In this document: in pieces, positions 4,421 to 55,003 of the stretch | How positions within the stretch are numbered: the stretch's first letter is position 1 | How the letters are laid out: each line of letters opens with the position of its first letter | DNA from: Clavelina lepadiformis | Lineage: Eukaryota; Chordata; Ascidiacea; Aplousobranchia; Clavelinidae | DNA length: 64,000 nucleotides | Reading direction: 5' to 3' | Assembly: GCF_947623445.1 (NCBI RefSeq) | Contig: NC_135245.1 | Coordinates: forward strand, 4,347,501 to 4,411,500 | Notes under the pieces: model-generated | The model's input: the letters and a program-made list of their open reading frames with translations, nothing else | What the model was told of the DNA's origin: nothing | Database searches by the model: none | Translations under genes and position numbers: made by a program

Positions 4421-9624
<5,204 letters not shown>

Positions 9625-18800: not shown

Positions 18801-21800
18801 ATTATTTGTTAAAAAAATCTGCCCAAGTTCGACGCCCGTTTGTGCCGGTTAACTTCTTGGCATAGAATTGCCGTTTTGCCTTATATTATATTGGCGTGCA
18901 AAAAAACTCATATTTTTGGTGAAGTCTGTGATGTAAAAAGTTTTTTGTTCATTAATGGACACTTTTTATTGAAGGTTGAAATTTATGCTGTGAAATAATA
19001 AAATTGTTTCCGTACGCTCGTTGACACCACAGATCTGCCTGTTGTCATTTTGAACCCTGCAATTTGCAGTGCATTATGCGTGAGGAACGTATCTTGACCT
19101 CTTTTTTCTCTAGCTCGTTTTTCTTTTAACTCCTTGGTAAACGTTATTTCTTTCGTGCAAACCAAGGTGCCTAATGTAATGTAGATATTGTCGTTAGCAC
19201 ATTATTTGTTATCTGTTGTTTATTTCTCGTCATGTTTAACCAGGCATTGTTGTTTGAAAGTAGTAAAATGTATTGTTTTCTTCAAAGTTGCATCTGTGGA
19301 AACAGAAATAAGATTTTATTTTGTGAAAGTGATAATTGGGCCCATTTTGCGAGGTGTGTGTTCGTTCGATCTGTTCTTGTAGGTAGGGTCATTTACCATT
19401 ATTGTGTTGGGGATACACATGAAAATGTTTCAATTACACCAAGCATTTACAGTTTCAACGTTGGATGCTTTAATAAGCGTTAATGCATAAGTACTTTGCT
19501 TTGACTGGATCGTTGTGTTCATATTCAAAAAATATTGTTGTACTAATTTCCCAAACAACGGAGTACTACTTGTATATATTGGAAATTCGAAAGTTTTTTG
19601 TGAATAAGCATTTGCAGTTTACATTTTTCGTATATCAAATCTAAACAACGTGTAACACTCTTATGATTATCACGATGTTTGTATGTCGTTTAAATGTAAT
19701 TTTAAGAGTAGGTTAACTATAGCAATTACTCACTGCAACACCTGATATGACTTGTTTTGCTCATGTGTTAAGTTACTTGCATAACACCATTGACGTCACC
19801 ATAGACGTCACACCATTGACATTATTTTGCCAAGCTGGCTTCAATGGGTTGGGTTTATTCTGGTATCCTAATTAGAACTGTCAAAGAGAGAGAAAATAAA
19901 TACTAAAGCTGCTAATAAGCCGAGGTTTTTAATCAGAATTTTTGAGATTAAAGTTAAAGCATTATTGTTTGCGCTCGCCAAGGCACAAGGGTAGTGTAAT
20001 GCAGCCGATACACTCAAAACTTTGGGCACCTGATCTACAGCTTCAACGTTTTCACCAGAACATTCATTTGTATTGATGAAGATTAACATAGGTCCCATGC
20101 ACTCAAGAGTTAACTTGTGCAAGTTCACATTGGAAAGTACACACTATCCTTCGATTTTTTTTCAAAGACTAAAGACTTTCGATAAAAACTTGTCTGTTTG
20201 TAATATGTTTTGTAAAAAATTGTAATTCTATACTACAGTAATTACACATTATGCTTGTAGTTATAACATCATCCTACATGCTGGCAAGCATTATAAAATT
20301 GATAACTGCCACTTTTGCTTCAGAAATGGTCAAGTTCATGACTGAAGTCGCGAAATTGGATACGGAGTTGACTGTTGAAGAAAGAAACTTGCTATCGGTG
20401 GCATTTAAAAATGTTATTGGTGCTCGTCGTGCATCATGGAGAATAATCAATAGTATTGAACAGAAGGAAAAAGCTAAAGAATCTGATGAACGCAACAACA
20501 GGGAGCTGGCAGCCAACTATCTCCAAATTGTTAGTTCTTTAAATGTTTATATATTTATTGTATGGCATATGTGCTATGTCTTAATCAATTTTTGTTAGTC
20601 CAGACTTTGTTCATAACACTGGTCTGCATGAAAATTTTATTCTGTATGATGCCAACGTTTTCTAGCTAATTTTGGTGCGCTGATTTCAAAAATGCCATCC
20701 TTTTTGGCCTGTCACATCAGGTTTTAAAGTTACGGTCGAAAAACCGCATAATTTTTCTCTTTTACGTTTTACTACCCACTTTTTTGTCAAAAGGATATAA
20801 TTTGTCAAGATAAATTTTGTTATCACAACGAGCTACGTATGTGGTACCAGAAAAAACTCAAGAGCCTTCCCTTTGGCGTCCCTACGGTATGTAGGGAGCA
20901 AAAAAACTATCGAAAGGACTGTTATTTTTGTATGGTGTATTAAGGGGTTTAACAGAAGAAACAAATCCAATATCAAGTACCCTAATTTAAAGTCAGCATT
21001 GAGGTGTGTACCACATTGTGATGAAATTCCTGTGCCGAATCCTCTAACAGAGATGCAAAGCTCCTCAGAATCTGAAAGAAGTGCAGGTGATGGAGAGCAC
21101 TATCAGGAAGGAATAAACGATGACTCTCCAGAGCTGTGTTCACAAACTCAGCTGAATGATCTCACAAGAGAGTTATATCTTTCAAAAGTATATGCACAAC
21201 TTCTAGTGTCAAGATTAAAGGAAAAGAATCTTCTAGAAAAGGGTACAAGTTTTGCGTGGTACCGCCACAGAGAGAAAAAATTTACAGAATTTTTTAGTAA
21301 AGAAAATACTCTGGTTTATTGGAAGAATGTTCAGGGTTTAGTTGAAACATTTGGGATATCATATTCAGCAGAATATTGGAGACTGTTCATAGATTCTTGG
21401 AAGACGAGCATGAAAGCTGTGTTGTGGTACAATGGGAAAACTGTGCCATCAGTACCTGTTGCACATTCTACTGATATGCCAGAAACGTATGAAAACACAG
21501 AAACTCTGTTGCAAATGATAAAGTACCAAGAGCATAACTGGTTGATATGTGGTGATTTAAAAGTTGTAGCTCTCATACTATACTACACTAAATTTCCCTG
21601 TTTTCTTTATCTCTGGGACAGTAGGGCGGATACTTCTCACTTTACTCGGAAATTGTGGCCAGCAAGAGATGAGTTTCTGCCAGGATCTAAGAATGTAAAG
21701 GCACATCCTCTTGTTGCTCCAGCAAAAGTTTTTTTACCGCCCTTGCACATCAAGTTTGAGTGCATGAAAAACTTTGTGAAAGATATGGACAAATACGGAG

Positions 21801-24800
21801 AAGGATTTAGGTACCTGCAAGAAAAGTTTTCTTCTTTATCCGAAGCTAAGCTGCAAGCAGGTATTTTCACTGGACCTCAAATCAGAGAACTGTTGAAGGA
21901 TGAAGATTTCGAAAAAAAAGTCTATAACGGAATTGCAAGCCTGGAAGGGGTTAAAAGCTGTTATCCAGCAGTTCCATGGAAATAACAGAGCCTCCAATTA
22001 CAAACAGCTTGTTACAGATATGCTCGATGCCTTTCAAAAACTTGGATGTAGGATGAGCATCAAAATGCACTTTTTACCCTCCCACCTAGACTACTTCCCA
22101 AATAACTGTGGGACGTTTAGTGAGGAACAAAGTGAACGTTTTCACCGCGAGAAAATGGTGATGGAGGAACGCTATCAGGGTAAGTGGAACGTCAGCATGA
22201 TTGCTGACTACTGCTGGTGTCTTAAAAGAGAAGACTCTACTAAATATGTGAGAAAATCAGGTAGACACGCATTTTCAATAAAATAGATACCGAGGGAGTG
22301 AACCGCTGTGCTTTCAATAATAATCATTTTACTGGATTGCATGGTTATTGCTGTCATATTTCAAAAATCTTTATTGTTTTATCATAAGAAGACAAAGATG
22401 TGTAACAATTCTGTGCAAACTGTGAATTTTTTCGAGTCAAGCTTGTTGTACACCTTACGTTATTTGCAATTATTCACCAAAAACGCTATATCACGTGTAA
22501 CAGTTATCTCAAAAACCTGATGTGCTAGAATAAAAAGGACCACAGATTCGGAATCAGCGCCCCAAAATTAGCTATGTTTGCATGTTTTTAGTGAAAAAAA
22601 AATTTTTAAGTTGAAAAATGCAGGCCAGTGTAATATATCCGAAATTATTAACTATTTAACAGAATCTTTTAAGGAATATTTTTCCTGTCTGTGTTAATAT
22701 ATTGTATTTAATGTAGTAATTATGCTTGAAGTAGTGATATGACGGTATTGGTCCATTAGGTTAAGTCTGGCCAAATATCGGTAGGTGTGCAAAATTGGTC
22801 AAATCAGTTATCGGTTGTGTGTGTACCAGTAGTTGTTAAGCTGGGTTTGTTGAGTCACTGGGGTTAATTGGGCTTTAGGATATATACTCGCTGTTTGTTT
22901 AATGTATGTTTTTGAATTTTGAGTTCAGTAAATGCATATGACATGAAACTTGAAGGGTTTACCACCTTGAACAAGTTTACTAACTACTGGTATAAACTCA
23001 GTACAGAGCCGGGGCAGATGTAGAAGATTTATAAGGGAAGTGTTCTGTTCGTCTGAAGTTTTGAAAATAGGAATTCCCCAAGAAACGGGAATTTTGCCAA
23101 CTTTATTTTACTGCTGGTTTATTTGCTTTCGTATCACTGTCCATAGTGTATTGGTTAATGAGCTTAAGAATATGTGCTTTTTTCACATAAATCATTCTTA
23201 GCTCATTCCTATGCTTGCTTTCCCTGTTAAATTTTCCAAAGTATAAGACCACAAGCAAAATCACAATAAGAGTTGTTGGTAACCAGTGCTGACGCATTTT
23301 GTTAAGTCGTCTTTAGTCAGTGATACTTATGCAAAAATCTGCAATTGTCTTCTTACGAAACACTTGTAACTATTTGGCCACGTCAAAAAAAAACAATATG
23401 ATGTCGGCACATAACAATGCAACATAACATTGTGACATCATAAACATTAGAAAAACACTTTTCAAAAAGGAGGTCAGTACGATGCATGTTAGCAAAAAGG
23501 CGACTCCAAATGTCTTCAAAATGATGACGTTATTCTTGAACCATCGTCACTTTCTACAGTGAGTAAATTATAGTTTTTTGAAACAACAGACAAGGCTAGT
23601 GAACGCAGTGCTCGAAAACAAACTATTTTTGCAGAAAATATTTCTTCTTCCACCAACAGTTTGTTTACTATGTTAATCCTTATGTTTTCAAGAAATTTAA
23701 GGTAACCATGCAAGCGTCAAGGTTACATTAATTATTATTTATATTTACTCCATTTCACATAAACGCATATCCATTTTGTCAGACATTTTTATGTGATTAT
23801 CTGTTATATGCGTTTAAGCCGTCTGCTCTAGAAATCATTTTCACATAAATAGACGATTGTGTACTTTACAAAACTAAACTCAAACAAAATCACACAAACT
23901 TCACAACAAGATAAACCAGTATGTTCCATATATACTGGGGTATAAGCCTTTCAAAAGAAAAATATAAGGCTTGTAATAGACCGTAAGTATGATCAAAGCA
24001 GTTTGTTTCATTAGTTAGCAGGTCGATAGATACAGTCGAAATCGGTTATCGCATAGTCAATTTGCCAAGCTTTTTTATGCGACTAACCGATGTATAGTCA
24101 AGTGGGGCAAAAAAATGCAAAATTGACAAACTTTTGATTTTCTCGCTAAAAAATGGGCCAAAAAGTAAAGTTTTACCCTCTATTGATCAATATTAATATT
24201 CCATTGATGTATCCAAAAAATTGGAGCATTATGTTTATTCTTTTTATTTTTATCGAATATTTTGTGTTGCTTTTTTTTCCCCAGTGTTTGGGGCAATAAA
24301 AACCATGCTTGGGGTAAAAAAAAACAATCAATTTCAACAGCAAATTTTGTTTATTAAAAGCAATACAAAGCAGAAGAAATAGCAATATATACAGATGAGG
24401 ATGAAACTGTAACATCTTGTTCAAACAAACAAAAAAGTTTATGCATTATGAAGTCCATATTTGCTTAGGAACACAAATTTTTCTTTCACTTCCTCTTCTT
24501 CGGCAAAACCAAAATATTATTTTGCACTTCCTTTGTTTGCCAGTCCCAATACACTGCATCTTCTGAAGTTGATTTCTTGTCCCAAAACTTAAATTCAGCT
24601 TGCTCAATCTTTCCATCAACCTCGTCTCTGAAGACCTTCAGAAGTTTTCCCCAATAATATGTTTTTGGCTTCTCCCAAAACACTGCAAAGTACTTTCCAA
24701 CTTGCTTTTTGTTTATTTCCAATTTAAATGTTCTCTTTTCTTTCTTCTGTTCGTTTACACTTTCTTCAGTTACATCTCTTCTCTCTTCCTCTACATCTTC

Positions 24801-27800
24801 CATTCTAACAACTGTGTCTTCTCTTGTTTTGTCATTCATTTCTTCAGATTCATTGTCAGACTCTTCTACCATCTCATCCTCTGTATCTACTCTCCTCATG
24901 TCTTCATCCATTTCTCTTTGAATTTCCTGCTCCATCCTTCTTTCTATTTCTTCCTCCTCCTCCAAGTCCAGTGATTTTATTTCTTCATCTTCGTCTGCGT
25001 TCCTTTTCCTTCTCCCAGCTTTTCTCTTTTTTGCAATTGTTCCATTTGCTTCAAAGTTTTCAACTTGCTTGTTAAATTCTTCATTTGTTAAAATGCTTCC
25101 ATTCATCTTCACTCTTTTTTCTTTTTTTCTTCTTGTCATTTGATTGTCGTCCCCTTGATTTTAACACACTTTCTATCGAAACCGATTCATCTTTTGACAC
25201 AAGCCGTATTTTATACTTCATCCTTTCGGGAGCGTGAAGTTGCAACTCATTGATGATGTCCTTTGTTGTTCTGATCCGTGATTGTACTGTGGTGCTCGTC
25301 GACGGTGTGAAAACAGCTTAAATGTTGCGGATTTATGAGGTGGATGGCATTTCTTCCACATTACTTGACCATTCAGTTTCCTGTGGACTGGTCTTTTCCA
25401 AAATTGGATTGCCTTCTTCATCTTTTGGAGAAACACAATGCTACCAGGACTGGTTAAACTACTACTGAACAGAGACTTCTGAAACTGGTAAATGCTTACA
25501 AGAAGGTTAAGCTTTTGAATAGCTATTTGGCAGGAGTTCAACAAAGTGGAATGGTACATAAATCAATTAACTACAAAGAACAACACAAAATGATTGGAGA
25601 GTGAAACTTCACGCTTAATTTCACTCGCTTAACTTAATTTCAAATGAATCATCAGTACATTAGGTTTAATGTATTTACTAGAGATCAGGAAACTGAGACA
25701 ATGCAAGTAAAACATTAAAATGTTAGTTTAATGCCTTATAGCAACCAAAATTGTTTTAAAATAAAAGTTATTAAAGATGGGGTAAAAAAAAACAAGCACA
25801 GGGAAAATAAAAACAGCTGTCTTTTTTTGCCCCAACACATTGTGTAATTATGGGGCAAAAAAAGACAACATAGAATAGAATGAAAGGTTAACAGAAATCA
25901 AAATTGAAGTACTGGAGTACAATCATACTGAAATATCATGTAGATACACATAAAAAGATTGTGATTTTCAACCATCGTTTTCAATCCACAAAAAGTTTAG
26001 TAAAGAGCAAAAAAAGTTTTTTTGGACCGTTTTTGGGTCAATTTAGTGATTTGCATAGTTCCTGAAGAGTACTTACCTCTGGGTCTGTATTGTATGTTAA
26101 AAAAATATGCAAATAAATGATGTTTCTAACCATGCAAAGCTTTTTAAAAAAAATCATTCTTAGGGGGAGTTGGGGGGGTTGTCCTTTTTTACCCCAAGTA
26201 CCCCTATGTTTTTTTTTGCCCCAACTGACTATATGCGTTTTTTACCTACATTTTCTCCGCTATTCTCTTTTAAACACCGGCGCACGCATTCTTGCTCCTC
26301 CGCCGATTTTTGGAATGACGCAACAAGTGAGCTTCCTTCTTTTCGATTTCGACACAAAAAAACACGTTACGTTACACACTTTGCGACGTAACAATCCTTC
26401 AATAAAAATTAGTCTTGTTGTTCTATTGTGATGTAACGATCCGTAACAATCCTTAAATGAAACGTAGTTTTGTGGTTCATAATCACTGTAGAGAAGGCCT
26501 TTTTTCGTGAAGTTTTACTTTATTGTTCAAATCATTTACGTGCTACTGTCTCTATAGCCTTCAGCCTTGCGGTGAATTTAATCACAGCTGTCTTTAATTC
26601 ACAACTGCTGTCTTCAGTTTCTTGTTGTGTATTTAATCGCTGCGGGTTATGGGAGATCTTGCGATGATTTTTGTTTATTGGTGAGGGTAATCTTCAGCAA
26701 CTTAACACTTCATCAAAGGAAATATGCAGTCAAGTGATACAAGTCTACAAATCAATCAAGAATTCCTATTCGATTAACCGATTTATACGATAAACCCTTA
26801 TGCGATTAACCGATGAATTTTCTTCACAAGTGAATGGGAATGGTTTGGGATTATGCAATTCTATGCTATAAAGCGATTTATGGATTTAACCAATATGCGA
26901 TTAACCGATTTCGACTGTATATACAATGGATAGATAGATAGAATTTGATTTAGGACTTCAGATTTGTATGCAATAAAATGATTTGTGCATTTAAGCGGCA
27001 TGTGATTAATCGATTTCGTCTGTGCTGCTGTAAGTTGTTGTTTAGGCCTATGCATGCATTCCCAATTTTTATTCTATCTCTTTAGAAAGCAACTCAGATA
27101 TCAAATAAAATATTTCAATCTGCTTCTAAGAATGTTATTTAAAGTTTGTCCTTTACATAATTTGATTTGATGTGAGGCAGACAAGTGAATTTGCTTTTCT
27201 TTTAATTTTTGAAACTAGAGATAAACTTACTTAAAAACACCATGTAAAAAGGGTCCATAATAATACCCTGCATGAATGGCAAATGACCTCGAAAAATCAT
27301 ATATATGTTTTGTTTCAACTGCTTTCGTGCAAAAATGGGAATTCTTCAAAATTAGTTAGTGATGATGTAAGTGTCTCCTCAAGCGTCAAATCCTGGTTCC
27401 GCCACTGTTTGATACAATGTGCTTAACAAAACCAGGAATCAGATAACCTTAAGGAACTTGTCGAAGAAAATCTTATTTGCACAAAATATATTGCAAGAAA
27501 CAAAGAAGTCCACATATATTGTTGTATGCATTATTGGTAGTTTTGGTCTATTTATGTTAGTTGACTATTCATTTTTTAGTTTAGCCATGACACCATACTT
27601 AACAATGATGCAAACTGTGTACGTTGCCGCTCTCATGTATTAGCGCAACTAAAACGTTCCTTGTTATAGTAAAACAACAAACTTTTAATACCATCAATTG
27701 CAGTTTTCGGTTGAGAAGAACAAACGAACTTTTGACCAAGTATCCACCATCTGTTAATTAATCATGTACAGCGGGCCAGATATTCAAGTTAATCAAATTA

Positions 27801-30386
27801 ACCCGGACACGTGTAGTATCATAATTCAGATGACATTACCAAAATGATATAATTGTAATCAGTATATATACAATGAGTACAGAAATCCAATATTGTAATA
27901 ATTAAATGAAATGAGATAGCTACTAACCAGAGAAATGTATGGCAAAATGCGACTGTGGCCTATCGTATCCTGTTTTATTTTGATTATTTTACCTCACTTG
28001 TAAGGAACCGATAATTTAGCAGTTTTGTTGCCCAAGTCTGGTAAGTCTACATGCCCAAATCACAAAGGTATATATAGCTTTTCAGTACCGCTATGCATTG
28101 TGTTTATCATTTTTTCTGAAAAGTATTTCCTGAAGCAAAATCACAAAGCAATCTGTAGAAGCCAACATGGGCCACTGACACGCTTTGTGCGCGAAAATTT
28201 TAATCGCATTCCAGCCAGCCATTGTTGATAGCACAAATGTGGTTTCATTTGCCACTGGACTGTGCTTAAACCAGATGCAAGTATTTCAAAAAAAACAAAA
28301 GAAAAAAAAACTGTGAAATTGGTAAAAAGAAACGGTGAGGGGGAAAAAATGCTTGCCGTTTGTCATAAAAGCGTTTTAGTAAGCATGTTTCTTTTCATTC
28401 TAGTGTTAGAACAAAAGTAATAGTTGTTTTTAATCAGCAAAATAAACTTTTAAGAAATGCGCGCAAAATTTATTTTAACTGCCATTGGTGGTGTTGCACC
28501 ATCTCAACTCCCCGGCTGTTTCCGCCCCGGGTACAGGGTATTAAAAGCTCATTTATTTTTGTAATTATGTGCTCATAGTACATGTGTCGTATAACTACCA
28601 CACGCCTTGTTAAACATCAGAAACGGCAGGAATCTTTAGCAAGCAGTTTATGCAATTTGGAAAAACAGTATTTTTCCTGAAGTAAAACTGTTCCTGTTGG
28701 CATGTAACTGACTTCAATGTTGCTCAATTATGGTGTAACTATACTGTGTTTGTGTGACAAGTTTGACTAAATTTGTATGCATTTCAGGTTGAGAGCGAGC
28801 TAAAAAGCACTTGCAGTGTGATACTCAACTTATTGGACAAGCATCTTATACCAAACTCTGCAACTGACGAGTCTAAAGTTTTTTATAGCAAAATGTAAGT
28901 GCTATTATGTGTGCCGGTTTAGTTATGGAACTTGTTTAGTTTGAAATGTATCGGAGAGGTTTGATACGCGTATTTTGGCGCCGAACTGACTATAGTAGCC
29001 GTAAGTGGCTTAACTCCCATATCTACCTGACTCTCAAGAAGGGCATCTCCATCCCAACCCATAGGCGGATTTTACCCAGTCAATCACAAAAGATAGCCTA
29101 TGCTGCTACTACGAGTGTAATCAGTGTAATGTGTTCGTACTATAGTCAATGCACTACGCACACAATCAAGGTGCATTCCAATTACGTTATAATTACAACA
29201 CGAACATAACCATCTTAAACTATACAACCAAATAAGAGACAGGTGGGGTTAGACGCCACAAGTTGGACAATGTGAATAATTTATCTTAAAGTAAATATAT
29301 AGCTAAACTCAAATAATAACAATACTCCAAAATCAGTATTATTACTTCTAAAATTAATCAAGTTGCTAGTTAATTCTGGATTTAGTTTTAGACCCATTAG
29401 TTCACCAATACACAGCCAGTATGATAAACGATTTAATTTGGTCCACCTTCATTTCATTTTACAGGAAAGGAGATTACTACAGATATTTAGCTGAATTTGA
29501 GAAAGATGAAGACCGTAAACTTGCTGCGGAAAATAGCCTTCAGGCTTACAAATCTGCTTCAGACCAAGCCACAAGCGCTCTCAAACCAACTCATCCTATT
29601 CGATTAGGTAGATTTAAATTGTATATTTAATAAACAAGATGAATATTGAATATGCTATTTTTTTGCTAGCATATATTGTGTGAAATTAGTGCAACCTGAA
29701 AGTTATTACTCAAGGTTAAACTCATTTTTGTAATTACAGTATAGTGGTGATATGTGTGTTCAAAACTTGTGAATTTACAAAGCTGATTAAATCAGAACCT
29801 TGACTAAGCCTACTTATAAAGTTATAACCGCTGTGGACATTTGAAATTTTTTATGACTACCTGTAGGTACAAATCACAATATTAAAATGATAACAATTGG
29901 GTTGTGTGTTAAATTCAATCAATACCATATCAACAAAGCCAAACAAACGATTAAAAATATTTTTTGAATGTTTATTCTGTTACCAAATTATTACTTTATG
30001 CAGGACTGGCTTTGAACTTCTCCGTTTTTTATTATGAAATCTTAAATTCACCTGATCGAGCTTGCGCTCTTGCGAAATCGGCATTTGATGCAGCTATCGC
30101 TGAACTGGACACTTTATCTGAAGACTCCTATAAAGATTCCACATTGATCATGCAGCTCTTACGCGACAACCTCACCTTGTGGACATCAGATATGCAGGCA
30201 GAGGGTAAGTGGGCAATTTTTGTCACATTTTAGTCACAGTGGTAAGCCGAATCATACCCAAACTGAAAGCTTGAAGTATACCCAGTGACGTGTCCATTGC
30301 TAAAGTGTCAGAATTTTATTTACTTCACAGATGTGAACCCAGATCAACAACTGGAAGATGTTGAAGACAATGCTGACGCTTCCTAA
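12806..30386 (+). CDS. 14-3-3 epsilon-like protein (gene C), mosaic structure
   Basis: Phosphopeptide-binding 14-3-3 adaptor. Exons: 12806-12878, 20324-20529, 28788-28894, 29465-29607, 30004-30204 and 30331-30386. Phases are continuous and predict 261 residues. The start is [20 protein letters not shown]. Key pocket residues are present in [16 protein letters not shown] and [11 protein letters not shown], and the C-terminal tail reads [13 protein letters not shown]. Introns 1 (7.4 kb) and 2 (8.3 kb) are swollen with transposons; introns 3-5 are short. The exon 2 tail ([13 protein letters not shown]) is unlike D, and its donor GTTAGT is less certain. Exons 4-6 with introns 4-5 and the 3' UTR are nearly identical to inverted copies in genes A and B, while exons 1-3 are D-like or unique. 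A likely polyadenylation signal is ATTAAA at 30634-30639. No internal stop is seen, so the gene may be functional. Confidence 0.88.
12879..15681. other. Intron 1 of gene C, left part
   Basis: No gene or clear transposon terminus seen. The reading frames here are short and low in complexity. Confidence 0.45.
15682..18268 (-). pseudogene. Decayed hAT transposase (TTF-finger / ZMYM-like type)
   Basis: Read on the minus strand, fragments occur in the correct order for a hAT transposase but are broken by stops and frameshifts. At about 18268 a start is followed by a stop at codon 6, then [20 protein letters not shown]. At 17481-17197, [18 protein letters not shown] and a degenerate NDGAANM carry the RNase-H-like core. 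At 17237-17031, [15 protein letters not shown] occurs, where functional copies have a histidine. At 16529-16302, [15 protein letters not shown]. At 15912-15682 lies the C-terminal dimerisation region with [17 protein letters not shown]. It lies antisense inside intron 1 of gene C. It is certainly non-functional; I could not locate terminal inverted repeats. Confidence 0.85.
16027..16147. repeat. 37-bp inverted duplication within the hAT relic
   Basis: Arms 16027-16063 and 16111-16147 are reverse complements at 35 of 37 positions, separated by 47 bp. The right arm belongs to the ancestral coding sequence (it encodes [14 protein letters not shown] on the minus strand); the left arm is a flipped copy that breaks the frame. 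This looks like a template-switch event. Confidence 0.85.
18269..20323. other. Intron 1 of gene C, right part
   Basis: No gene seen. Three GACGTCA-like words cluster at about 19790-19825 (TTGACGTCACC, AGACGTCACACC and a degenerate one), without further support for regulatory function. Confidence 0.4.
20873..22286 (+). pseudogene. Frameshifted gene of a widespread transposon-like protein family
   Basis: The first frame (20873-21985) runs without an ATG until about 21051 and contains [52 protein letters not shown] and [17 protein letters not shown]. The family continues in another frame (to 22286) with [56 protein letters not shown] and [10 protein letters not shown]. The switch falls at a run of eight A (21912-21919). 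I remember this protein as highly repeated and unnamed in arthropod and cnidarian genomes; the spaced acidic residues would suit a transposase, but that is inference. Relative to that memory a few residues are missing before YTKFPCFL. It lies in intron 2 of gene C, same strand. Confidence 0.75.
22287..24032. other. Intron 2 of gene C, middle part
   Basis: No gene or clear repeat end found. Confidence 0.4.
24095..26231. mobile_element. Nested pogo/Tigger-like element with GGGGCAAAAAA ends
   Basis: Left end TAGTCAAGTGGGGCAAAAAA and right end (reverse complement) TAGTCAGTTGGGGCAAAAAA, with TA on both outer sides (24093-24094 and 26232-26233). Extra GGGGCAA or GGGGTAAAAA words occur in both orientations at about 24275-24320, 25780 and 25855, probably subterminal binding repeats. 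The minus strand carries an acidic/basic protein segment at 25139-24486. The element sits inside the element at 24033-26917 and therefore inserted later. Confidence 0.85.
24486..25139 (-). CDS. C-terminal-type segment of a pogo/Tigger-like transposon protein
   Basis: Up to 217 residues within the nested element. The first part is highly charged ([17 protein letters not shown], then long Glu/Arg/Asp-rich stretches). The last 70 residues contain [20 protein letters not shown], followed by a hydrophobic/charged segment rich in Trp and a basic end LPKKRK. That pattern of a short beta-rich domain after an acidic linker recalls the C-termini of some Tigger/jerky-like transposases, which is inference from memory. 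No DDE core is visible upstream: the frame at 25559-25218 is unrecognised. Probably a remnant of a deleted transposase rather than a host gene. Confidence 0.5.
   Translation of the reverse strand: MTRRKKEKRVKMNGSILTNEEFNKQVENFEANGTIAKKRKAGRRKRNADEDEEIKSLDLEEEEEIERRMEQEIQREMDEDMRRVDTEDEMVEESDNESEEMNDKTREDTVVRMEDVEEERRDVTEESVNEQKKEKRTFKLEINKKQVGKYFAVFWEKPKTYYWGKLLKVFRDEVDGKIEQAEFKFWDKKSTSEDAVYWDWQTKEVQNNILVLPKKRK
26920..28787. other. Intron 2 of gene C, right part
   Basis: Contains a decayed second copy of the TA-element terminus near 27005-27023. It also contains a lone hAT-like end at about 27388-27406 (TCCTGGTTCCGCCACTG, reverse complement CAGTGGCGGAACC) whose partner I could not find. No gene is seen. 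Confidence 0.4.
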
Positions 30387-30560
30387 ATTTTCCTGAGATA
30401 AATCTGTTTTATGTATTTCACCAATGGCTATTGTATCTCTTGGCTCTCAAATTATTCAATGTGCAACTGATACTTTAAGATTGCCTAGAGTCAACCTTTG
30501 TGAGCACTGGCATTTGATATTGTTCAGTTTCTTGCAATCAAAGAATAATTAATTATAAAA
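29447..30560 (+). repeat. 1.1-kb segment shared, inverted, with genes A and B
   Basis: From the intron 3 acceptor (ACCTTCATTTCATTTTACAG) through exons 4-6 and into the 3' UTR, this segment matches the reverse complement of about 34980-36110 (gene A) and 43760-44875 (gene B), introns included. Upstream of the acceptor and beyond about 30560 the match stops. Confidence 0.85.
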
Positions 30561-31214
30561 TGCTTCCCAAAGCAAACTAACGATTGTGATGTCATAAAAA
30601 TTTCTATTTTGGCAGCATTGAATTTTGTATGGAATTAAAGAGTGCTGTGTAGTAACATAATTTTATTTTAAAAACGTAGTTTTTTTTTCAAAGAGACTTT
30701 TCAAGCTGTTATCACATGTAGTTGTTTTGGCTGTGATAACTAGCATAACACGAGCATCACTACAGTTTCTAAAAAGCTGCATTTGGATGACTGGTGATTG
30801 TCAGTGTAAAGTTCATTAATGCGCTTGAACTATGACATTTTTTGGCCTAATACCCAATTCCTTTGAGCTAAGTACTGTAGTATTTTAAGTCAAATATCGT
30901 ATTCATTTCAAATGCTTCTGTAGTTGTGTGTGAGTAAACCAAACGATTTTGTGTTAAGATTTTCTCTTCGAAGTTATAAGATGTATGAGAATTGAGAACA
31001 GCAGATGTTACTTCGCGTTATTTTAAAATTTCAGCTGGTGGCGTATTTCAGGTTCGTCTTTACCTTTGTTCGTCCTACGCACGAAAGTTCCAGCTTTCAG
31101 ACAAAAACTACATAGCTGAGAAGACGAACAATAACTATCATTTTAGTATTGATTTATGGCCACTGTCCATGCTGAAATTAGTCGATTTCCATGATTTTGT
31201 TGCACGTTCTACGT
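30561..31214. other. Downstream flank of gene C
   Basis: Holds the ATTAAA signal at 30634-30639 and otherwise nothing I recognise. Confidence 0.45.
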
Positions 31215-32108: not shown

Positions 32109-33107
32109 AATGGTTAAACAAAGTGTGTTAGACCGATCCGAGGCCAGCATGGTTGGTGTTTTTTTTAGTGCGGGAGTTACCCTAGCAAATAACGCATTAA
32201 AATGTCCTGGTAGCATGTTTAGCTTAGCCTGAAATGTAGATGAAAGTTGATCAATTTTGACTTTTTAGCCCGTAACTGTCGTGTTGAGTTTAGTGGGCCT
32301 ATTGGAAGAGCTAGAGATATGAAATTTTACAAGATAATCGCCTAAGGCATACTAAAATCTCAGTGAGCCACATGCGGGGTTTTTCGAGTTAATGCGTTTT
32401 TAGTAATTTCACTCTACAATACAATAAAACAAACAGAAATATTAGCTCTATTTACAAGGTTTGACGGCTCGATAAGTCACAACAGCTTGTAGGCAGATTG
32501 ATTTGTTAATAAAGGTTTTGAATAACATTTCGGCAGGAGCTTGTACTAAATACAGTACGTCTCTTTCTTAAAAGTTTACTTTAATTTTGTATAAAGATGA
32601 CTAAGTTACGCCTCAACTAACGAACGAGTTACGTTTCTTATGTTGAATTCTTCGTAAGTTAGCTCTGTACTTTTTAATCGGTGTTGCTTAAGTTGTTTTC
32701 TTATTTTAAAGACAGAAAAATAAATCTGGAAACTTAAATAGCATTTTACGCATCGTATATTCCGCTATTGTTCTGATGAAGTTTTTTATATGTAACAGTT
32801 TGTTTTATGACTTGTGACAACTATACGCCTACCAAATAATCGAGTAAGATTAATTGTATAATTTGTTTTCTCCAATATTTTATAGTCCCTGTGGACTAGT
32901 GTTACATTACGTTACTATTGTTACTTTGACGGTGTGACCAACACAACTTTTTATTAGCTGCTGTGCCAAACACAAAACTACTTAAAATTGAATATAATAA
33001 TCAACCGATTACTATGTCTTTGGTAACTAAACAATCCAGTAATCAACCGACTTCCATTGGTGAATCCTGTTCAACTTAATTGAATAAAATTTGATTAATT
33101 TGAAAAA
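32109..33107. other. No gene seen
   Basis: AT-rich spacer between the hAT element and the tandem segmental duplication. I recognise nothing in it. Confidence 0.45.
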
Positions 33108-33902
33108 ATGCTAACAATTGACTAAATTACACATTACGAAAAACGAATCACTTTAATTCTGTTTATAACTTAGAAGGTTTTGAAGAAGAATGTATGTGCT
33201 TGAAAAAGGTTTGGTTTGTGATGTGATGTCTACTTGGACCAACGGAAATACTTAAATTTTGGAGAGAAATTCAACACAAGAGCGCAATGAAGGAAAGGGG
33301 GGGATTTCAGTTTTATCACTTCTGCGACCATATCGTTTAAATACTAAAATGAAACGTGTCTTTGTTTCATAAAGAAATTTAACATTTTCTTTGAGGTTTT
33401 GAGCGCTTTTTCATTCGTTCAAATTTTGCATCGGAGTTAAGTTTGCTATATAAATTTTATTATGACACCACAATGTATTTTACGTTACGTGCAAGGTTAT
33501 GTTGGGGCAACTTGAAGCCGTTTGAAATTAGCAAGTAAAAAACATCGGAAATGATGTGTGTAGATTTGCGATGTTCACACTGGATTGGTAGACGTGTGTA
33601 CGAATGTTCGTAAGTCGAGGAGTTACTGTATTTGTGTTATTAACGGTGACTCGCAATTCTCCACCTATTCTGAGAAGGGAGCAAACTCAGCCTAGAACTC
33701 TTTAGGTATCAGCCAACTTAAAACAGACAATCATCATTAATAGAAATATGTATTATTGTTACAGACAAATCTTATAATTACAGGTTAACTGGAAGATACT
33801 CTCAGGCTTAAACGGCTCAGTTAAAACTCAATAAACATCTAGAAAGTTTAAATTCAGCATAGAGCAGTTCAGCTCGATTACCTAGATTACTAGAGGTTAC
33901 AG

Positions 33903-34001
33903 CAGGGAAGGGCAACATACGGCCCGCGGGCCGGATCCGGCCCGCCAAATACTTCATTTTCTCATATCAGGCCCGCCGACCGAAGAAGTTGCCCGCCCCT
34001 G
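33903..34001. mobile_element. 99-bp hAT MITE, perfect TSD, absent from unit B
   Basis: Ends CAGGGAAGGGCAACATACGG and (reverse complement of the right) CAGGGGCGGGCAACTTCTTC. Flanks GGTTACAG at 33895-33902 and 34002-34009. The right half is almost the same as the left end of the element at 52261-52601, so it is an internal-deletion derivative of that family. The matching position in unit B (GGTTATAG, 42745-42752) is uninterrupted. Confidence 0.95.
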
Positions 34002-35152
34002 GGTTACAGGTTACTATAACACATACCTAGCCCTTTTATTGACCTAAACGACTCTACTTTTTGAGGTGGAAAGCGGTTACATAGGCCTATTTACAGGTTG
34101 ACAGGTAATAATAAAACCTATAACTAAAAACAATAAATATAAATTGCACACATGAAGGGGTGTAATTAACGTGTAAGTACAATGAACTTCGCAGTTTAGC
34201 CAATGGGGATTAAGTTTATCATATTTTTTATTAGTTGCGCATTAATTGTTATCTCCAAGATTATTGTAACTCTAAGTCGTCTTCATAAATAACAAACGGC
34301 TTCAAAAGTTGTAAGTACAAGGTCATAAAAACATCAAGTTCAGTTAAACACGTGCATTATTTCTCTTGGTTAGTTTCTCTAACGCTTCATCAACAATTAT
34401 AAAACTTATTCCGTAATTCTTCAAAGCAACGTCATAAAATCATTAAGTTTTACGTCATATGAGGAAAAGAGAAAACATTGCACTAAGATAAGCTTACATA
34501 ACAGGATTAAAGCTTTCAGTAATAAAATCCTTTGTCTAAGTCTGACGTTACTTTTATAGTAGAAAGAAGCAGTGCCCATCATGCTAACCTTTGGATATCT
34601 GGTTCTTCAATCTGGGCAGAAGAATAAGTGCTTTTAAATTCAAGCAATTGTTTCTTTGACGTGGTTCGTGGTTGTTCAGGTTTTACATTTGCGCGGTGTG
34701 TCCAATTCTCGTTTATAGTGGAGAATGACCGAGCATAGCACGGAAGACTTCATTTCGTGACAAGAGTTGTGTGTTGATGTAACGTATGGATTAGGTTGTT
34801 AAACTGTCAAGAGAATTTTGTTACGTCATAATTTGGCGTCGTTTGTGCGCTGTATGCCTGACGTCAACCATCACAAAGACATTTGTTTTTTAACTCAGGT
34901 TATATATACCTATTTGTGTTGTTTTCAGTATTTTTCGACATTAACTATGGAGTGTAAAAACAAAAAAGTATGGGGGTATTTTATTATTAATTATTCTTTG
35001 ATTGCAAGAAACTGAACAATATCAAATGCCAGTGCTCACAAGGGTTGACTCCAGGCAATCTTAAAGTATCAGTTGCACATTGACCATTTTGAGAGCCAAG
35101 AGATACAATAGCCATTGGTGAAATACATAAAACGGATTTATCTCAGGAAAAT

Positions 35153-38100
35153 TTAGGAAGCGTCAGCGTGCTCGAGGTCTTCAACGTCTTCCCGTTGTTG
35201 ATCCGGGTTGACTTCTGTGAAGTAAATAAAATTCTGACACTTTAGCAATGGACACGTCACTGGGTATACTTCAAGCTTTCAGTTCGGGTATGATTGGGCT
35301 TACCACTGTGACGAAAATGTGACAAAAATTGCCCACTTACCCTCTGCCTGCATATCTGATGTCCACAAGGTGAGGTTGTCGCGTAAGAGCTGCATGCTCA
35401 ATGTGGTATCTTTATAGGAGTCTTCAGGTAAAGTGTCGAGTTCAGCGATAGCTGCATCAAATGCCGATTTCGCAAGAGTGAAAGCTCGATCAGGTAAATT
35501 TAAGATTTCATAATAAAAAACGGAGAAGTTCAAAGCCAGTCCTGCATAAAGTAATAATATGGTAACAGAATAAACATTCAAAAAATAATTTTCATTCGTA
35601 AGTTTAGCTTTTGAGGTGGTAATGATTGAATTAACCACACAACGCAATTGTTATCAGTTATCACTTAAATATTGTGATGTTTTGTCTAGTCTTAAAAAAT
35701 GTCATAATTTCAAATGTCCGCAGTGGTCATAGCTTTATAAGTAGGCTTAGTCAAGGTTCTGATTTAACAAGTTTTGTAAAATTACCAAGCTTTGAACACA
35801 CATATCACCACTATAGGCCTACTTTAATTACAAAAATGAGTTTAACCTTGAGTAATATCGTTCAGGTTGCACTAATTTCACACAATATATGCTAGCAAAA
35901 AATAGCATATTCTTCTTGTTTATTAAATATACAATTTAAATCTACCTAATCGAATAGGATGAGTTGGTTTGAGACTGCTTGTGGCTTGGTCTGAAGCAGA
36001 TTTATATGCCTGAAGGCTATTTTCCGCAGCAAGTTTACGGTCTTCTTCTTTCTTACATTCAGCTGAATATCTGTAGTAATCTCCTTTCCTGTAAAATGAA
36101 ATGAAGGTTAAGAGTGGAGTGCATGATTCGCTAAAAGTACATGATTCGCCAAATGTACATGATTCGGTTATAAGCATGATTTGAAAAAGGTACATGATTA
36201 ATATGTGTATTATATACCAAATATCGATATTATTATATGGATAAATACAGATATTATTATACCGATATTCCAGCCTACCACAGCACTGAAGTGCCGCTAT
36301 CAAATCAATAACGTCTATACCGGTACTTTATCTGTCACACTTCTAACAAAACATAATCTTACGGATTTAGTGTTGAAATAACTTCTAAAGAAACATTCTA
36401 TTCTTCGACACAAACAAAACTAAGCATACGCTTATTCCTGATCGCAAAATATTCTGCAGTGACGGTAAACGGTAGCTTTCCGTCTGCCCAAAACTTAGGC
36501 TTGTAACAGAACTTTGTCTTTTGTCAAAATCCCTTTGATTCTTGCATCCCGCCAATAGAGAAACGTCTTATGACGTCAAACATATTAGTGCACACTTGGC
36601 GCACTCTAACAACGAATCATGAGCAATTGATCAATTACCTACTTTTGGCAAATCATGTGTACAGTTACCGAATCATGTATATTAGGTAAGTCAGGTAGCT
36701 TACATTTAGCAAATCATTTACATTTTTGAAATCATTTACGAATTCACCGAATCACGTACATTTGGAAAAATATTATCTGTACATTTGACGATCCAGGTAT
36801 AGTTATGTATATACTGTAGGTATATTCATGAAGACGCTATGCGATTCATACGTTCTTTTATAGAATCATTTAGTGTTTTTAGGAATGATGTTGGTTTCGC
36901 AATTTGTGTAGGCCTATGTCTGTCTTATCACGCATGTATTTTGCAAATTGGTTTGCTGATTTTTAATTTACAGAAATTAATTTCTGAATCTTACTAAATC
37001 TGATTAACAAAACTGCATTTCTTTTAAAGAAAATACTATTTGCAATTAGGCATTGAAAATTTCCAACAGCCAGTTTGTTTTGAAGTTGTTACATCTGACT
37101 TAAAATATCTTGGTTTAATTTAAAAAAATCAAGTTTATAAAACTGTGGTGTAATTGTAAATGTTGCGAAACCATTTTGAACATTGGCATATGAATCGCGC
37201 GATGGCAATCACAGAAAAGCCTATTTCAATGCTGGTTTTGACATTTGGTTTTTTGTTTCGTGATTGGAATCTATAAAATTGTATTTAAAAACTCTTCACT
37301 TAAATTATGTAAACAAAAAATAACTTGCAAAGTTGCGATACAATTTAGCACTTTGCTATTTTTGCGGCGATGTCGTTTGATATCTTTGTAGCATAATTGT
37401 CTAATAAATAACTACATGCGTGTTTAATAATGTTAATATTTCATTTGGTGGTTTCAAAACAGAATACACATCCTACACGTGCATTCGTTGACCATATACA
37501 GTATACGTACATCTTCATGAAGTAAACCTTCGCCTCCAAATCGTCCTCTTCGCAACCTGAATATAACGGCAAAATATGCTGATCGATTAAATCTATGACT
37601 TCGTTCGTGATGTCAGTGAGTTCGTTGTCAATCTGTTGGCAAATTAAAAGCGAGAAAATATTAAAAGCCAAACAATGAAAAATATTTTATAGATCAGACG
37701 GATCAAGTCAAAACAAAAATCTATAGTAGACGTCTTTTTGAAATAAAATGGAAGAGTAGCAAAAATTTTCTGGTGACGTTACCAATTCAAATGCAGCCTC
37801 CTGTTTTAGAGTGGCGTCACGTGGTTATAAATAGGTATGTCGCAATGCTGTTGATGACGTCGTGTAGTTGCTGATTAGTAATTTAGAGAGGCAGATCACA
37901 ATCAGAAGGAAAAGTGTTAATGTTTTACAGCAGCCTGCTGCTTTCAATAGCACCTTGTCATTGTTTACTGCTCAGTAACTGGCAGGCTGATGTTGGTGTT
38001 GTATAAGGCTAGGTTGCTGTTCATGACATAATGAACAGCAGACAGCATCAGCGGCTAACTTTGTTAAAAAATTAATTGCTTTTGATTACGTCCCGAACAG

Positions 38101-40850
38101 CAGCCTGGTGCAACACCAACAACATGTTGTCAATCACTGAGCAGTAACAGCAGGCTGCAGAATCCATTGTTTTGGTTACGAAGTCGTCTCGCATGTTTTG
38201 TCAAGGTCCAGACAAGGATGGGATTGTGAGAAGAGTCCAATTTAAGACTGCAGACAATAGATTCATGCGTGACATACGCAAGCTCTGCCTGCTGGAGGCA
38301 GCATGACATAGAGCGGAGCCCAAGGTGTTCAGCAGCGCATTAATTTGCGAACATACGCGGTTACAATACGAAACATGCTTTAGCCATTAACAGGACAAAA
38401 CACCTTTCCATTTCTACATACACATCTTCTTAACTGTGGTAGTTGCCTTACTGTAACCATTTGTAGCAGTTTTATATCATTCGATTCATTCTCACTGTTG
38501 CTTGCATGCTTAGTATTATCTTTCTAGTTTGGTACTGTTCATTTATATTGCTTGCCAAAGATTTACTGACTGACTACCAATGTTAATACTGTGCCTCATT
38601 GCTAGATTCTTCCGCATTTAAGCCTTACATACTTAATTACCTCTTAGACTTTGTTGTTTTGGAATGTACCCGAACTTGTCATCACCTATGATCATTTGTA
38701 AGATGTTCCTTCTTCATTTGCCATCATATGTAGCTTATTAACCATTGTAGTGTGGTCGTGTTCTGATCTTTATTCATAAGTGATGTGCAGACTTGGTTTT
38801 CATGTCAGTTACCTCTTTCTGTTACCTCTTTTCATGTCAGTTACCTTTACCAGTTATGTTTTCCTTGCTGTCCTTGAATTTGTCCGTTTTTTTTTTATCT
38901 GAGAATAACTTCATTCCACTGCGTTATTCTACGATATTACAATTTACTAGTATTGCCGATTATTTTCATTGGGTGCAGACTCACTGGATAGTGTTTGTTT
39001 CCTTACTTAGGCCTTGTTTGTACTTTCGGATGATAAGTACCCTGAGTTCTGTACTTATAGAAATCACACACACACCCCATACCCTTATACGCCCACAGAT
39101 TTGTAGCTGTTCTGTTCGTCTGTTCGAATGATCATTTCTTTCTAGCCATTCAATATAAGACTTTCAAGAAATCCGTGTGCATTACTAATATTCAGGGAAG
39201 GGCGGAACTCAGTCCTTGATGGCCCGAAGGACACCCCTTAGGACTTAGATGATCGACATTTATAAATTTGCCGCTTATACTGTCTTTGGTAAGGGTGTAG
39301 GCATATGTTTGAAGCAACATTATATTTTCGGCGTATATTAGGCGTATATTTTCGGTTTAGTATTTTCCTGTTTAGCCCTTCACATTTTAGTAATTTCTTT
39401 ACTAGTACACTTTTGCAGCGACTTCATATCCTGTGGCCTGCGTAACGTTTTCAAAACCTAGCACAACAAACAACCAAGTGAGCAAGTACCAACGACAAAC
39501 AAACTCATAACAAGAGTTGCTTAACTTTTGAAATAGTATTGCAAAAGTATTGCTTAAAAGAGTATGATTTTGGTTATTCGTATTATTGATAGAGTGTACA
39601 GCACCTATAATAAAACCTTTTCTTGTAAACTAGTTTTGTTGCAATATTAAAACCTTTCGACAGACAAAAAGGTTAGAGTATTCTAACGGCAAGCAACAAT
39701 AGAGTCATAAATATTTAACAGGTAATTTAAGTAATGATACCCTCATACGTCAAAAGGACTTCTTCACAGTCATGAATATAATAATGTATAATAATTATTT
39801 CCGAAACCACCAACATGTTCCTGATATCTTTCCATTGCACTCCTGTCGTACTCTCTTTTTTGCCGTAATTCTTCCAAGGTTATCCAAGATGAACGTCGAG
39901 CGCCAACAAGGTTTTTATATCCAAGCGACCAAAGGTTTCTTTCCTCTCTGCTTAACTTTTCTCCACTCATTACAACAGGTTTCATGTATTCGACCAAATC
40001 TGTAACATACAATAGCCTCTATAGTACACAAGCCAATGTCACTATAAGGTTGCAAACATGGCGAGCCCAAAACCAGTTACACCTTGGTGCTAAGCTTTTG
40101 ATCGAAGTCGGTTCATTGTTCACGTAAAATGGGCCACAACCGAAATTATCTCTACAGTTTAATTTAGTCAGTTAATTATGAAAATATTTATAACTTTATG
40201 TAATGACAAATTTGGCCAAGCTTGGCATTTAAGCCCATTGTTCTGCAAAAACACACTAATTAATCGGCAAAAATAGCCATTAACAACAACTATTACCGGT
40301 TATTTGGTGCACAGTGAGTTTTTTTTATAAATCATTTCAATTTTAAATGACCTGGTAAATGATTCTTTGAATTTCAACATTTAAATTTATTTCACGTTTT
40401 ACAAACAATATTTGTTTTGCCATAGATTAATTCAAATTTGGATTTATCTTAATTTTTTTAAATTGTTTTTGTTTTTTATTTTGAATTAATATGGATTAAC
40501 ATAAATCTAAATAAATTACTACAAATTGTTTCAATCGTATCGTAAATCTTATGATTCTAATATAAATCCTCGTATTCACAACAGGTAGCAAGTAGTTTTA
40601 CGGATAACCTACTTGAGCTGCGAATACGTAATTGAATAAGTAACATGTGAACCGGTAACTTAGCAGACAGTACGTTATTGCCTCTCGTTAAGATTAAAAA
40701 AAAATTCTCTTCCAATTTACATATTATTTCGATACAGCTAATTCTCTAATATCCACATATTTGCAACGTACCCTGATATCTTTCAGCTTTCTCTGCCATT
40801 TTAGCTTCGAAAATACACTTTTCTTTGTTTGTCTGCGCGGCTTGACCCAT
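35153..40850 (-). CDS. Divergent 14-3-3 protein (gene A)
   Basis: Exons on the minus strand: 40850-40772, 39999-39815, 37632-37511, 36088-35946, 35541-35341 and 35214-35153. All phases join, giving 263 residues; an in-frame ATG at 40859 would add three. The start chosen, [12 protein letters not shown], is the one conserved in gene B. The pocket residues remain in [15 protein letters not shown] and [10 protein letters not shown]. Exon 3 is unusual: [20 protein letters not shown] replaces the typical HLIP...ESKVFYYKM. Exons 4-6 closely match gene C. The tail ends EDLEHADAS. An acceptor-like TTTTGCAG precedes an open in-frame stretch upstream of the start (boundary 40905/40904), compatible with a 5' UTR intron or spliced-leader addition. 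AATAAA lies at 34980-34985 on this strand. No disabling change is seen; divergence suggests a lineage-specific paralogue. Confidence 0.88.
36121..36800. repeat. Foldback-like repeat region in intron 3 of gene A
   Basis: Near the left, the word ACATGATTCG(C/G) recurs about every 18 bp (36121-36190). Near the right, its reverse complement CGAATCA(T/C)GTACAT recurs (about 36620-36790). The centre includes AATATCGATATT-type palindromes. Opposed arrays of one word suggest a foldback transposon or an expanded inverted minisatellite. The same structure is present in unit B, so it predates the duplication; gene C intron 3 lacks it. Confidence 0.7.
37928..38165. mobile_element. Palindromic MITE-like repeat, unit A copy
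   Basis: The ends read ACAGCAGCCTGCTG and (reverse complement of the right) CTGCAGCCTGCTGTTACTGC. Long imperfect complementarity extends inward, including TGTTGGTGTTG against CAACACCAACA. It is non-coding and lies in intron 2 of gene A. It is shared with unit B at 46926-47166, so the insertion predates the duplication. I did not find a clear target-site duplication. Confidence 0.65.
38199..39290. repeat. ~1.1-kb sequence present only in unit A
   Basis: Unit B runs straight from CGTCTCGGATGTTTAG to TTTTGGTAAGGGTGTAG, while unit A has about 1.09 kb between the matching points. It may be an insertion in A or a deletion in B. Short reading frames inside (for example 38793-39131) look unremarkable. 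No terminal repeats are seen. Confidence 0.7.
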
Positions 40851-43800: not shown

Positions 43801-43965
43801 AAATGCCAGTGCTCACAAGGGTTGACTCTAGGCAATCTTAAAGTATCAGTTGCACATTGAACATTTTGAGAGTCAAGAGATACAATAGCCATTGGTGAAA
43901 TACATAAAACAGATTTATCTCAGGAAAATTTAGGAAGCGTCAGCATTGTCTTCAACATCTTCCAG

Positions 43966-49379: not shown

Positions 49380-50830
49380 TATAGAAATTTCAGTTGCAAG
49401 TTCATCAAGTAAAAGCCTATCCTTGTCCACTCTGCAAAATTTAGGGTACTGCAGCTATTTCAGAAAGCCACCATTTTAGATCTGTACTGTAATCTATCTC
49501 AACTATCCGAATGCAAAGCATTTGACGTAACAAGCTCTAAACTTTATGCATGGTGAGAGAAGCTATTCAGTAAGTAATACGACATACGTAATTCAACATA
49601 CATATTATACACACAACGTTTCACCTGACAAAGTAGCCTTGTGCGGCTAAAAATGCTCGTGTCTTATAAAATTTACCAACTTTTATGGTTTAAAAATGTG
49701 CGCCTTGCTGTTATGCTATACTTCTAAAGTGATTAGCAAGAAGTCGACATCATATTTAAAATAGCCTCCATACATATGTACAGCTAAACATAAACAGTGT
49801 TGTTATATTAGGACTATTAGGTTTCAGTTTGTTGAGGATATGACAGAACACGGCAACGTACGACGATGCATACTGACTCATCGGTGAATCCAGGTGAATA
49901 AATAATTGAATGCAGTGTGCGCGATGTATATGTATGATGATTGTTTTGATATATTGCTAAAAATGAATGTTGCAACTGCAACCACGATATCACACGCGAA
50001 ACTGCAGTCAAGAACATTATTGGTTTTGTGGTAAACTTCTAACATGTTATTGTGGTAAAAACTTTTGAATACGATGTGCTACATTTTACCTACCATTAGA
50101 ATGTTGAAATAGAAAATACTTGTGCTGTGCTTGTAAATTCGAGCGAGTTTGTTTAAGACTATATAGGTGGCAGTACTGAATTATTGTACCGCGGTGAAAA
50201 ATTACTGAACTGACCAATTACTTCAAAACCACTCACATAACCCGTGCTGAAACTTGAGCCCTATAAGGGCGAACTGATGTGAGTTAATTTAACATTATAC
50301 TAAGTTAACTAACTAACTAACTCTGCATCTGCCGCAGCAACCTCTGCAAACTGACCAATTACTTCAAAACGGGAAATTTGCGAAGCGCAAACTGCGAGTT
50401 AATCTCACCTTATACTATATTACAAACTTTCACTTTACTAACCATGTCCCCATTTTGTCCCAACAGTGTTAGGCAAATTAAATGTAAACAACATCCCCAA
50501 AGACCATTGCACAGTTGCAATTAATTAATGATATGACAAAGCATTAAATCAAAAAAATGTAGACATATCACTTCAATCGAATTTATAGTACTGCAGTTAT
50601 ATCGTACAGGTCGCGTACAAGGATATCGTTTATGCGTGTTATAAATAGGTGTCCATGCTAGGTGACGTATTAGGTCTAATAAAAAGTGTAGTGTCCTCCG
50701 CCAGAAAATAAAGTTTCATGCAAACCTAAGGAGGCATAGAGACAACTAATCTTCACTTGCATGTACTTTACTCTGGAGTTCCATTCCGCCCGGAACCGAA
50801 GCAAATTTCACAATATATGACGTAGTATGT

Positions 50831-54352: not shown

Positions 54353-54971
54353 GTCAGGAGACAAGTTTATGGATGTTTGAGACACTACAAAATTAATTAT
54401 ATAGGCCTAATTGTCTAAGACTAATAGCAATGTGTTTTATTGGGTGGTGCACATAAATGCAAATGTTTAAGTCTGATTTCAATGCCTAATAATTAAAGTT
54501 GCAGGAAACCTCTGGCAGAAATAGAAATGTAAATCCTGGAAAACAATACGCTTTCAGGCTTTGCACGTATGAATCCTGACAATAACAACCATAGTGGAAA
54601 GCTTGGCAATTAACGACTGCAGCTTAAGATTTTTCAAAGAAAAATTTCCAATAAAGGGGAAAAGACAAGACATGCACTTTTGATCGTATGTTTTTGGAAG
54701 ATCAGAGCATAATATCTTGTTTTTTTAGTTATTGCACAATCAACAAAAGGAGAGCCCACATGATTTGCGTTTAGCCTAGACTTTAGTGACATAGACTACA
54801 TAATGCACTTGGTGTATCCGAATTTCGGTTGTGTTGCACCCTCGAGATCTTGTTAAAAAGTGCATTTTCCAGTCAGGATAAACAACTCGCATTACACAGT
54901 TGAAATTGTTAGTTAGGACTATATTATTATTATATGTTTTAATTACGTATTTTTAAAACTTTCACTTTCAG
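54353..54971. other. Upstream region of ACSS1-like gene
   Basis: No gene seen. It ends in a good 3' splice acceptor (TTTCACTTTCAG, ending 54971), consistent with a 5' UTR intron or a spliced-leader acceptor just before the ACSS1 reading frame. Confidence 0.5.
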
Positions 54972-54987
54972 ATTATTTCTGCTTGAT

Positions 54988-54999
54988 ATGTGCTGTTGA
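54988..54999 (+). promoter_or_regulatory. Minimal upstream ORF before ACSS1 start
   Basis: An ATG at 54988 starts a three-codon frame (ATG TGC TGT TGA) that closes four bases before the main ATG at 55004. If the transcript begins at the acceptor at 54972, ribosomes would meet this ATG first. It could reduce translation or be bypassed; no functional proof. Confidence 0.4.
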
Positions 55000-55003
55000 A
55001 AAA

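Follow-up and report, generated by a model that had tools for sequence, protein, structure and literature searches.

Ectopic conversion between linked, oppositely oriented paralogues is described for the Hsp70 and Amylase pairs of Drosophila in excerpts of one review (PMC3924832), and chimeric gene duplicates, or partial duplications with recruitment, are described in excerpts of another (PMC3449122). Here we analyze a locus of the ascidian Clavelina lepadiformis, comprising a stretch of 64,000 nucleotides (contig C6, 4347501–4411500; hereafter the window, to which positions refer unless stated otherwise) that holds four 14-3-3 genes in the order D (minus strand), C (plus), A (minus) and B (minus). 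The 14-3-3 proteins are strongly conserved. At this locus, however, the genes have a mosaic structure: the 3′ half of gene C recurs in inverted orientation in genes A and B, with C as the conserved, donor-like copy. On the sequence evidence presented below, A and B are hybrids carrying a foreign 3′ half, whereas C looks like a normal epsilon gene in both halves.

As in the Hsp70 and Amylase pairs, linked inverted paralogues have been made alike by sequence transfer; unlike in those pairs, only half of a gene is alike while the other half is saturated with change, a mobile element lies directly at the joint, and no more than one transfer is needed. Like chimeric duplicates, A and B are built from a copied part and other sequence; unlike them, both parts come from one family and the product is a complete 14-3-3 domain. 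Set against 14-3-3 epsilon (the YWHAE type), C matches along its length and D groups with epsilon in both halves, whereas the N-terminal half of A and B is divergent. The type of event is itself well known, and the locus adds a further clear case of this way of forming hybrid genes; a literature search limited to one paper library showed no report on it among the papers listed.

An inverted segment shared by gene C with genes A and B

Models of the four genes were built by hand, with six exons apiece and GT-AG ends at all introns save one GC donor in D. Gene C (14-3-3 epsilon; 12806–30386, plus strand; exons 12806–12878, 20324–20529, 28788–28894, 29465–29607, 30004–30204 and 30331–30386) has a 261-aa open reading frame, GT/AG splice sites and long introns 1 and 2 (7.4 and 8.3 kb). 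The chimeric gene A (35153–40850, minus strand; exons 40850–40772, 39999–39815, 37632–37511, 36088–35946, 35541–35341 and 35214–35153) has a 263-aa open reading frame with intact splice sites, and the chimeric gene B (43930–49379, minus strand; exons 49379–49301, 48592–48396, 46417–46296, 44853–44711, 44306–44112 and 43985–43930) reads for 251 aa up to a stop in exon 6, within the acidic tail. The whole PF00244 domain is matched by each of the four (A 280.6, B 274.5, C 336.2 and D 348.9 bits, against a curated cut-off of 33.2).

Comparison of the window with itself by blastn aligned C 29445–30561 (plus) with A 36108–34978, inverted, at 90.4% identity over 1147 columns, and with B 44873–43755, likewise inverted, at 87.4% over 1142 columns (E=0 for both). 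The segment in C comprises the last 20 bp of intron 3, exons 4–6, introns 4–5 and 175 bp of the 3′ untranslated region (UTR); its counterparts are the C-derived 3′ halves of A (34978–36108, minus) and B (43755–44873, minus). This match to the reverse complement had been proposed in the initial annotation of the stretch and holds, although “nearly identical” overstated identities of 87–90%. A genome-wide search with the segment, of a kind that skips very common words, returned five matches, namely the segment, its counterparts in A and B, and two short stretches of D.

Both edges of the segment are sharp, as the annotation had noted for the intron 3 acceptor region and the 3′ UTR. At the 5′ edge 20 bases before exon 4 are in common, and the 3′ edge lies in the 3′ UTR at ...AATTAATNATAAAAT, an ATAAAA-like signal 175 bp past the stop. 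In 50-column windows, the identity between C and A is 0.78–1.00 within the segment versus 0.32–0.68 in the 600 bp on either side, so divergence is not uniform along the gene, and the alignment of A with B continues past the edges where the identity of C and A falls. A search of C 12000–33000 against the whole A and B units found, outside the segment, 67 bp of exon 2 (73% identical in A, 76% in B) and a 26-bp bit in A, and nothing else at E≤1e-3. As in an ectopic conversion tract, high identity is confined to a sharp-edged segment, non-coding sequence included, between otherwise diverged paralogues.

Diploid assemblies can contain tandem repeats that are false duplications, and a misjoin or retained haplotypes might accordingly be suspected here; misassembly had also been named in the annotation as something that would overturn its claim. 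We consider such an artefact extremely improbable: there is no N in the window, the copies differ by 9.6–12.6% and each has its own separate flanks. Further, a QV of 67.4 is reported in part of the text on this PacBio/Hi-C assembly (PMC10884593).

Identity of the hybrid genes

The annotation had cast C as the mosaic, with D-like 5′ exons joined to A/B-like 3′ exons. The 3′ half of C does match A and B far better than D at the DNA level, as would be expected had C received it from them, but several lines of evidence reverse this polarity: C resembles D in both halves and it is A and B that are chimeras. Nei-Gojobori distances were computed separately for exons 1–3 and exons 4–6 (exons 4–5 for C and D). 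For exons 1–3, dN is 0.54 between A and C and 0.50 between B and C, with dS saturated for both, in keeping with the earlier observation that these exons are quite different; for exons 4–6, A and C differ by a dN of 0.050 and a dS of 0.087, and B and C by 0.092 and 0.155. Between C and D, dS is saturated in exons 1–3 and 2.3 in exons 4–5, while amino-acid identity is 63% and 77%, respectively, indicating that the 3′ half of C is no less D-like than its 5′ half.

Searches against PDB gave 14-3-3 epsilon as the best match of C (1.1e-110, nearly full length). The first three exons of A instead found beta, theta and zeta chains (best 9.9e-26), with an epsilon fusion at 2.9e-22 coming last among the best 60 matches, a small margin. 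Affinity to epsilon along the whole protein is therefore seen in C (from the PDB match) and D (from the trees), but not in the N-terminal half of A. This half is not closest to epsilon, yet the intron positions of A are epsilon-like: those after RYD/RYQ and after KM are common to A, B, C and D, whereas both zeta-like genes on contig C1 read through them.

Trees computed by halves recovered the grouping of A, B and C solely in the C-terminal half (9 rows; support 86/85), where the branch of C has length 0. In the N-terminal half (10 rows), C and D group with the human epsilon from PDB (90/87) and A and B stand apart on a branch of 1.38, which points to A and B, rather than C, as the mosaics. 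A clade of A, B and C in this half, named after the tree had been seen, is rejected by the approximately unbiased (AU) test (p-AU 0.014); A, B, C and D together with epsilon are weakly supported (70/68).

Polarization of residue differences gives the same direction. Exons 4–5 contain 22 variable residues, 17 of which can be polarized against D, epsilon and gamma. At 17/17 of these C has the outgroup residue and hence no derived one, while 4 are derived in A, 9 in B and 2 in A and B in common, and 2 changed differently in A and B. Conservation between C and D likewise extends over the end of the tail and the beginning of the 3′ UTR (30363–30466 versus 4348–4444; 72.6% over 106 columns, E 5e-7), and it persists despite saturated synonymous sites; the stretch is possibly a regulatory element. 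This conservation also led us to drop, in part, the argument that the strong likeness of the 3′ UTRs in A, B and C reflects recent conversion, since constraint suffices to account for their likeness where C is conserved even with the much older D; the identity of A and B outside the gene remains.

Because C is epsilon- or D-like in distances, PDB matches, trees, polarized residues, tail and start of the 3′ UTR, we take A and B, not C, to be the hybrids. A transfer in the opposite direction, with C as recipient, is contradicted by the protein affinities and by the complete lack of derived residues in C among the polarizable sites, and appears to us very improbable.

Joints, mobile element and order of events

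We think it likely that these genes arose by one inverted replacement of the 3′ half of the A/B ancestor by a copy from C, followed by tandem duplication and exchange between A and B. The ancestor would have been one 14-3-3 gene of epsilon-type intron layout, far diverged from C and D, in which an inverted copy of the 3′ half of C, today 4.4 kb away, took the place of exons 4–6, introns 4–5 and the 3′ UTR in a single replacement. The 5′ joint would have formed beside a broken mobile element in intron 3, 20–30 bp upstream of exon 4, and the 3′ joint where the poly(A) signal lies in AT-rich sequence. Tandem duplication of this hybrid would then have given A and B, which later swapped DNA locally. 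We infer that the transfer was the repair of a single break, with C as template and end joining as the final step, and that the joint broke the mobile element.

This element, identified by repeat matches, is a dispersed one with inverted arms, and lies on the minus strand in intron 3 of both A (36119–37377) and B (44884–46167; the end at 46167 is set by a match, the other approximately by alignment with A). Its copy in A stops about 10 bp short of the C-derived segment. Genome-wide, the element has at least 230 matching pieces and carries short tandem subrepeats; among the best 40 of 94 candidate matches there are nine loci with two inverted arms, spanning about 4 kb end to end. In one copy (L017) a 107-bp terminus occurs twice, once at each end. 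This terminus is recognizable once in A (85% over 102 bp) and once in B (87% over 62 bp), and a second was not found in either. Of five element copies in which termini were sought, four have one terminus, a partial control given that the stretches may stop before the other end. Intron 3 of C contains a different dispersed repeat (28942–29264) and, besides the last 20 bp, has no match to intron 3 of A better than E 1.5.

The 3′ joint lies in AT-rich UTR sequence, and past its edge no homology between C and A/B is recognizable. The 394 bp of A beyond it match A and B only, genome-wide, and the 633 bp of C beyond it match only themselves among the best 40 of 367 candidates. A has the same two joints as B. 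Copying through RNA was considered and rejected, as the copy includes introns 4–5 and is not followed by a poly(A) run in either A or B. Another dispersed repeat, of about 550 bp and with 39 matches besides A and B, occurs 3′ of A (34027–34583), with a copy also 3′ of B.

Absence of recognizable homology past either joint is equally what a partial inverted duplication with recruitment would leave, in which C exons 4–6 were inserted beside the element and gave orphan exons 1–3 a new 3′ end. No trace of older A/B exons 4–6 appears among the genome's 24 PF00244 matches at E≤0.001, which also suits this account; it differs from replacement solely in whether the old exons 4–6 were still present. 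However, it requires an orphan 5′ half to stay open long enough, and the intron at the joint agrees in position and phase with that of a native exon 4. Hence, we hold it to be improbable.

Returning to the replacement by a copy from C, its place in time can be gauged from the two units of the 8.9-kb tandem duplication, which self-comparison of the window placed at 33096–41968 (with A) and 41982–50818 (with B). The transfer most likely preceded this duplication, judging from the two joints and the two derived exon-5 residues that A and B have in common; with the joints common to both, a single transfer from C to the A/B ancestor suffices. Of the inverted duplication or ongoing conversion suggested in the initial annotation, we uphold a non-allelic transfer of the 3′ half that is inverted and has sharp boundaries, whereas ongoing conversion between C and A/B is not claimed. 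Intron 3 differs between A and B by 4–19% per 150-column window, and intron 4 of C by about 9% from A and about 14% from B; given these similar divergences, transfer and duplication may have been close in time. Identity between A and B is very uneven, and supports a later exchange between them that would have reached partly outside the gene: A 34343–35093 (minus) is nearly identical to B, differing at 13 of 750 columns when the block differs at 315 of 3471, a contrast attained in 0/2000 shuffles.

The same region might also have been shaped by recurrent gene conversion, the A/B ancestor being a whole-gene inverted duplicate of C whose exons 4–6 were repeatedly overwritten by C, while the intron-3 element, as a “terminator” of homology in Walsh's sense, and the 7–8 kb introns 1–2 of C freed exons 1–3 to diverge. 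That the element lies where the shared segment ends fits this, as does the greater nearness of A than of B to C; excerpts of a review (PMC3449122) describe how insertion of a mobile element can slow conversion. Clumping is also seen in the site types of the three genes (60 runs versus 79 expected, 2/10,000 shuffles), but the fast change in B, with its 9 of 17 polarized residues in exons 4–5, makes clumps possible without conversion. Weighing against recurrence are the joints and two derived exon-5 residues common to A and B, the lack of any homologous intron on the far side of the element (the intron 3 comparison above) and the rejection of the A, B and C clade in the N-terminal half. We therefore regard recurrent overwriting as unlikely, although it deserves more serious consideration than the other alternatives. 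A later A–C tract over exon 5 and intron 5 is not claimed: non-coding events shift from 17:14 to 2:10 in the contrast of A=B with A=C (p 0.039; 0.034 with exon 5), with neighboring sites merged and the breakpoint picked by eye after the data were seen, and the residues common to A and B in exon 5 oppose it.

Several observations count against a single replacement from C. The N-terminal tree is short (129 columns) and has long branches, and a clade of A, B and D in that half survives testing (p-AU 0.136). Within the segment, A and C are closer than A and B, which leaves room for later exchanges, and one exon-5 column, among the 5 undecided, has B=D and A=C. Other listed element loci show one arm only, so that a missing second end is not rare; with the subrepeats blurring the exact break, the broken element is weak evidence by itself. 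Finally, the order and direction of transfer are read from one haplotype of one genome.

The 14-3-3 gene set and the hybrid proteins

A search of the whole genome with the PF00244 profile yielded 24 exon-wise matches at the threshold given above, corresponding to the exons of the four genes in the window, one intronless copy on contig C9 and two genes on C1. Gene D (4421–9624, minus strand; exons 9624–9561, 7618–7422, 6019–5913, 5502–5360, 5283–5080 and 4470–4421) is a second epsilon-type gene, whose intron 4 apparently uses the GC donor site (5360). The intronless copy on C9 is a frame of about 244–249 aa (L001 1456–2205; around G000:C9:11897602–11898267) with vertebrate gamma as its best PDB match, and is probably an old retrogene kept open. 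Elsewhere in the window, 54917–57046 (plus) encodes acetyl-CoA synthetase domains (PF16177, PF00501 and PF13193) in one open frame of 709 codons, apparently intronless, and 20801–21985 (plus), within intron 2 of C, is a 394-codon open frame with no Pfam match at E≤0.001.

The phosphate pocket of 14-3-3 proteins is formed by Lys49, Arg56, Arg127 and Tyr128 in the numbering of human zeta, according to part of a published account (PMC9523730). We mapped these columns onto the four proteins and found all four residues in three of them (A, C and D). In B the Arg56 column is Gly (GARR to GARG, exon 2), with the other three residues kept; B further has GLALN changed to ELAYN and the stop in the acidic tail. 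The dN/dS between A and B is 0.78 in exons 1–3, 0.69 in exons 4–6 and 1.0 in exons 4–5 alone; the first two values are open to both weak constraint and diversifying selection.

As to whether A and B are plain pseudogenes, the kept reading frames make a moderate case against it. There are 0 stops in exons 1–5 of A and B, whereas neutral placement of 80 substitutions produced a mean of 4.1 and left 1.4% of 5000 runs free of stops; when exon 6 and the stop in B are counted, 0 or 1 stop occurs in 6.9% of the neutral runs. Three exons differ in length between A and B, by 12, 6 and 6, all multiples of three. Hence, A probably works as a hybrid 14-3-3 that evolves fast, while B may be one with an impaired pocket, or one on its way out. 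On the strength of the missing Arg56 equivalent and the GLALN to ELAYN change in B, we tentatively offer the further, rather doubtful proposal that A and B form a lineage-specific hybrid pair, each combining a fast-diversifying N-terminal dimer half with an epsilon ligand-binding half, in which a phosphate-blind B would tune A, C or D through mixed dimers.

A conversion-like tract that ends beside a mobile element bears on how such elements set the reach of homogenization among paralogues. For the family itself, a 14-3-3 pair with dN/dS near 0.7–1 and a swapped half amounts to a natural domain-swap experiment, setting the dimer half apart from much of the ligand-binding half.

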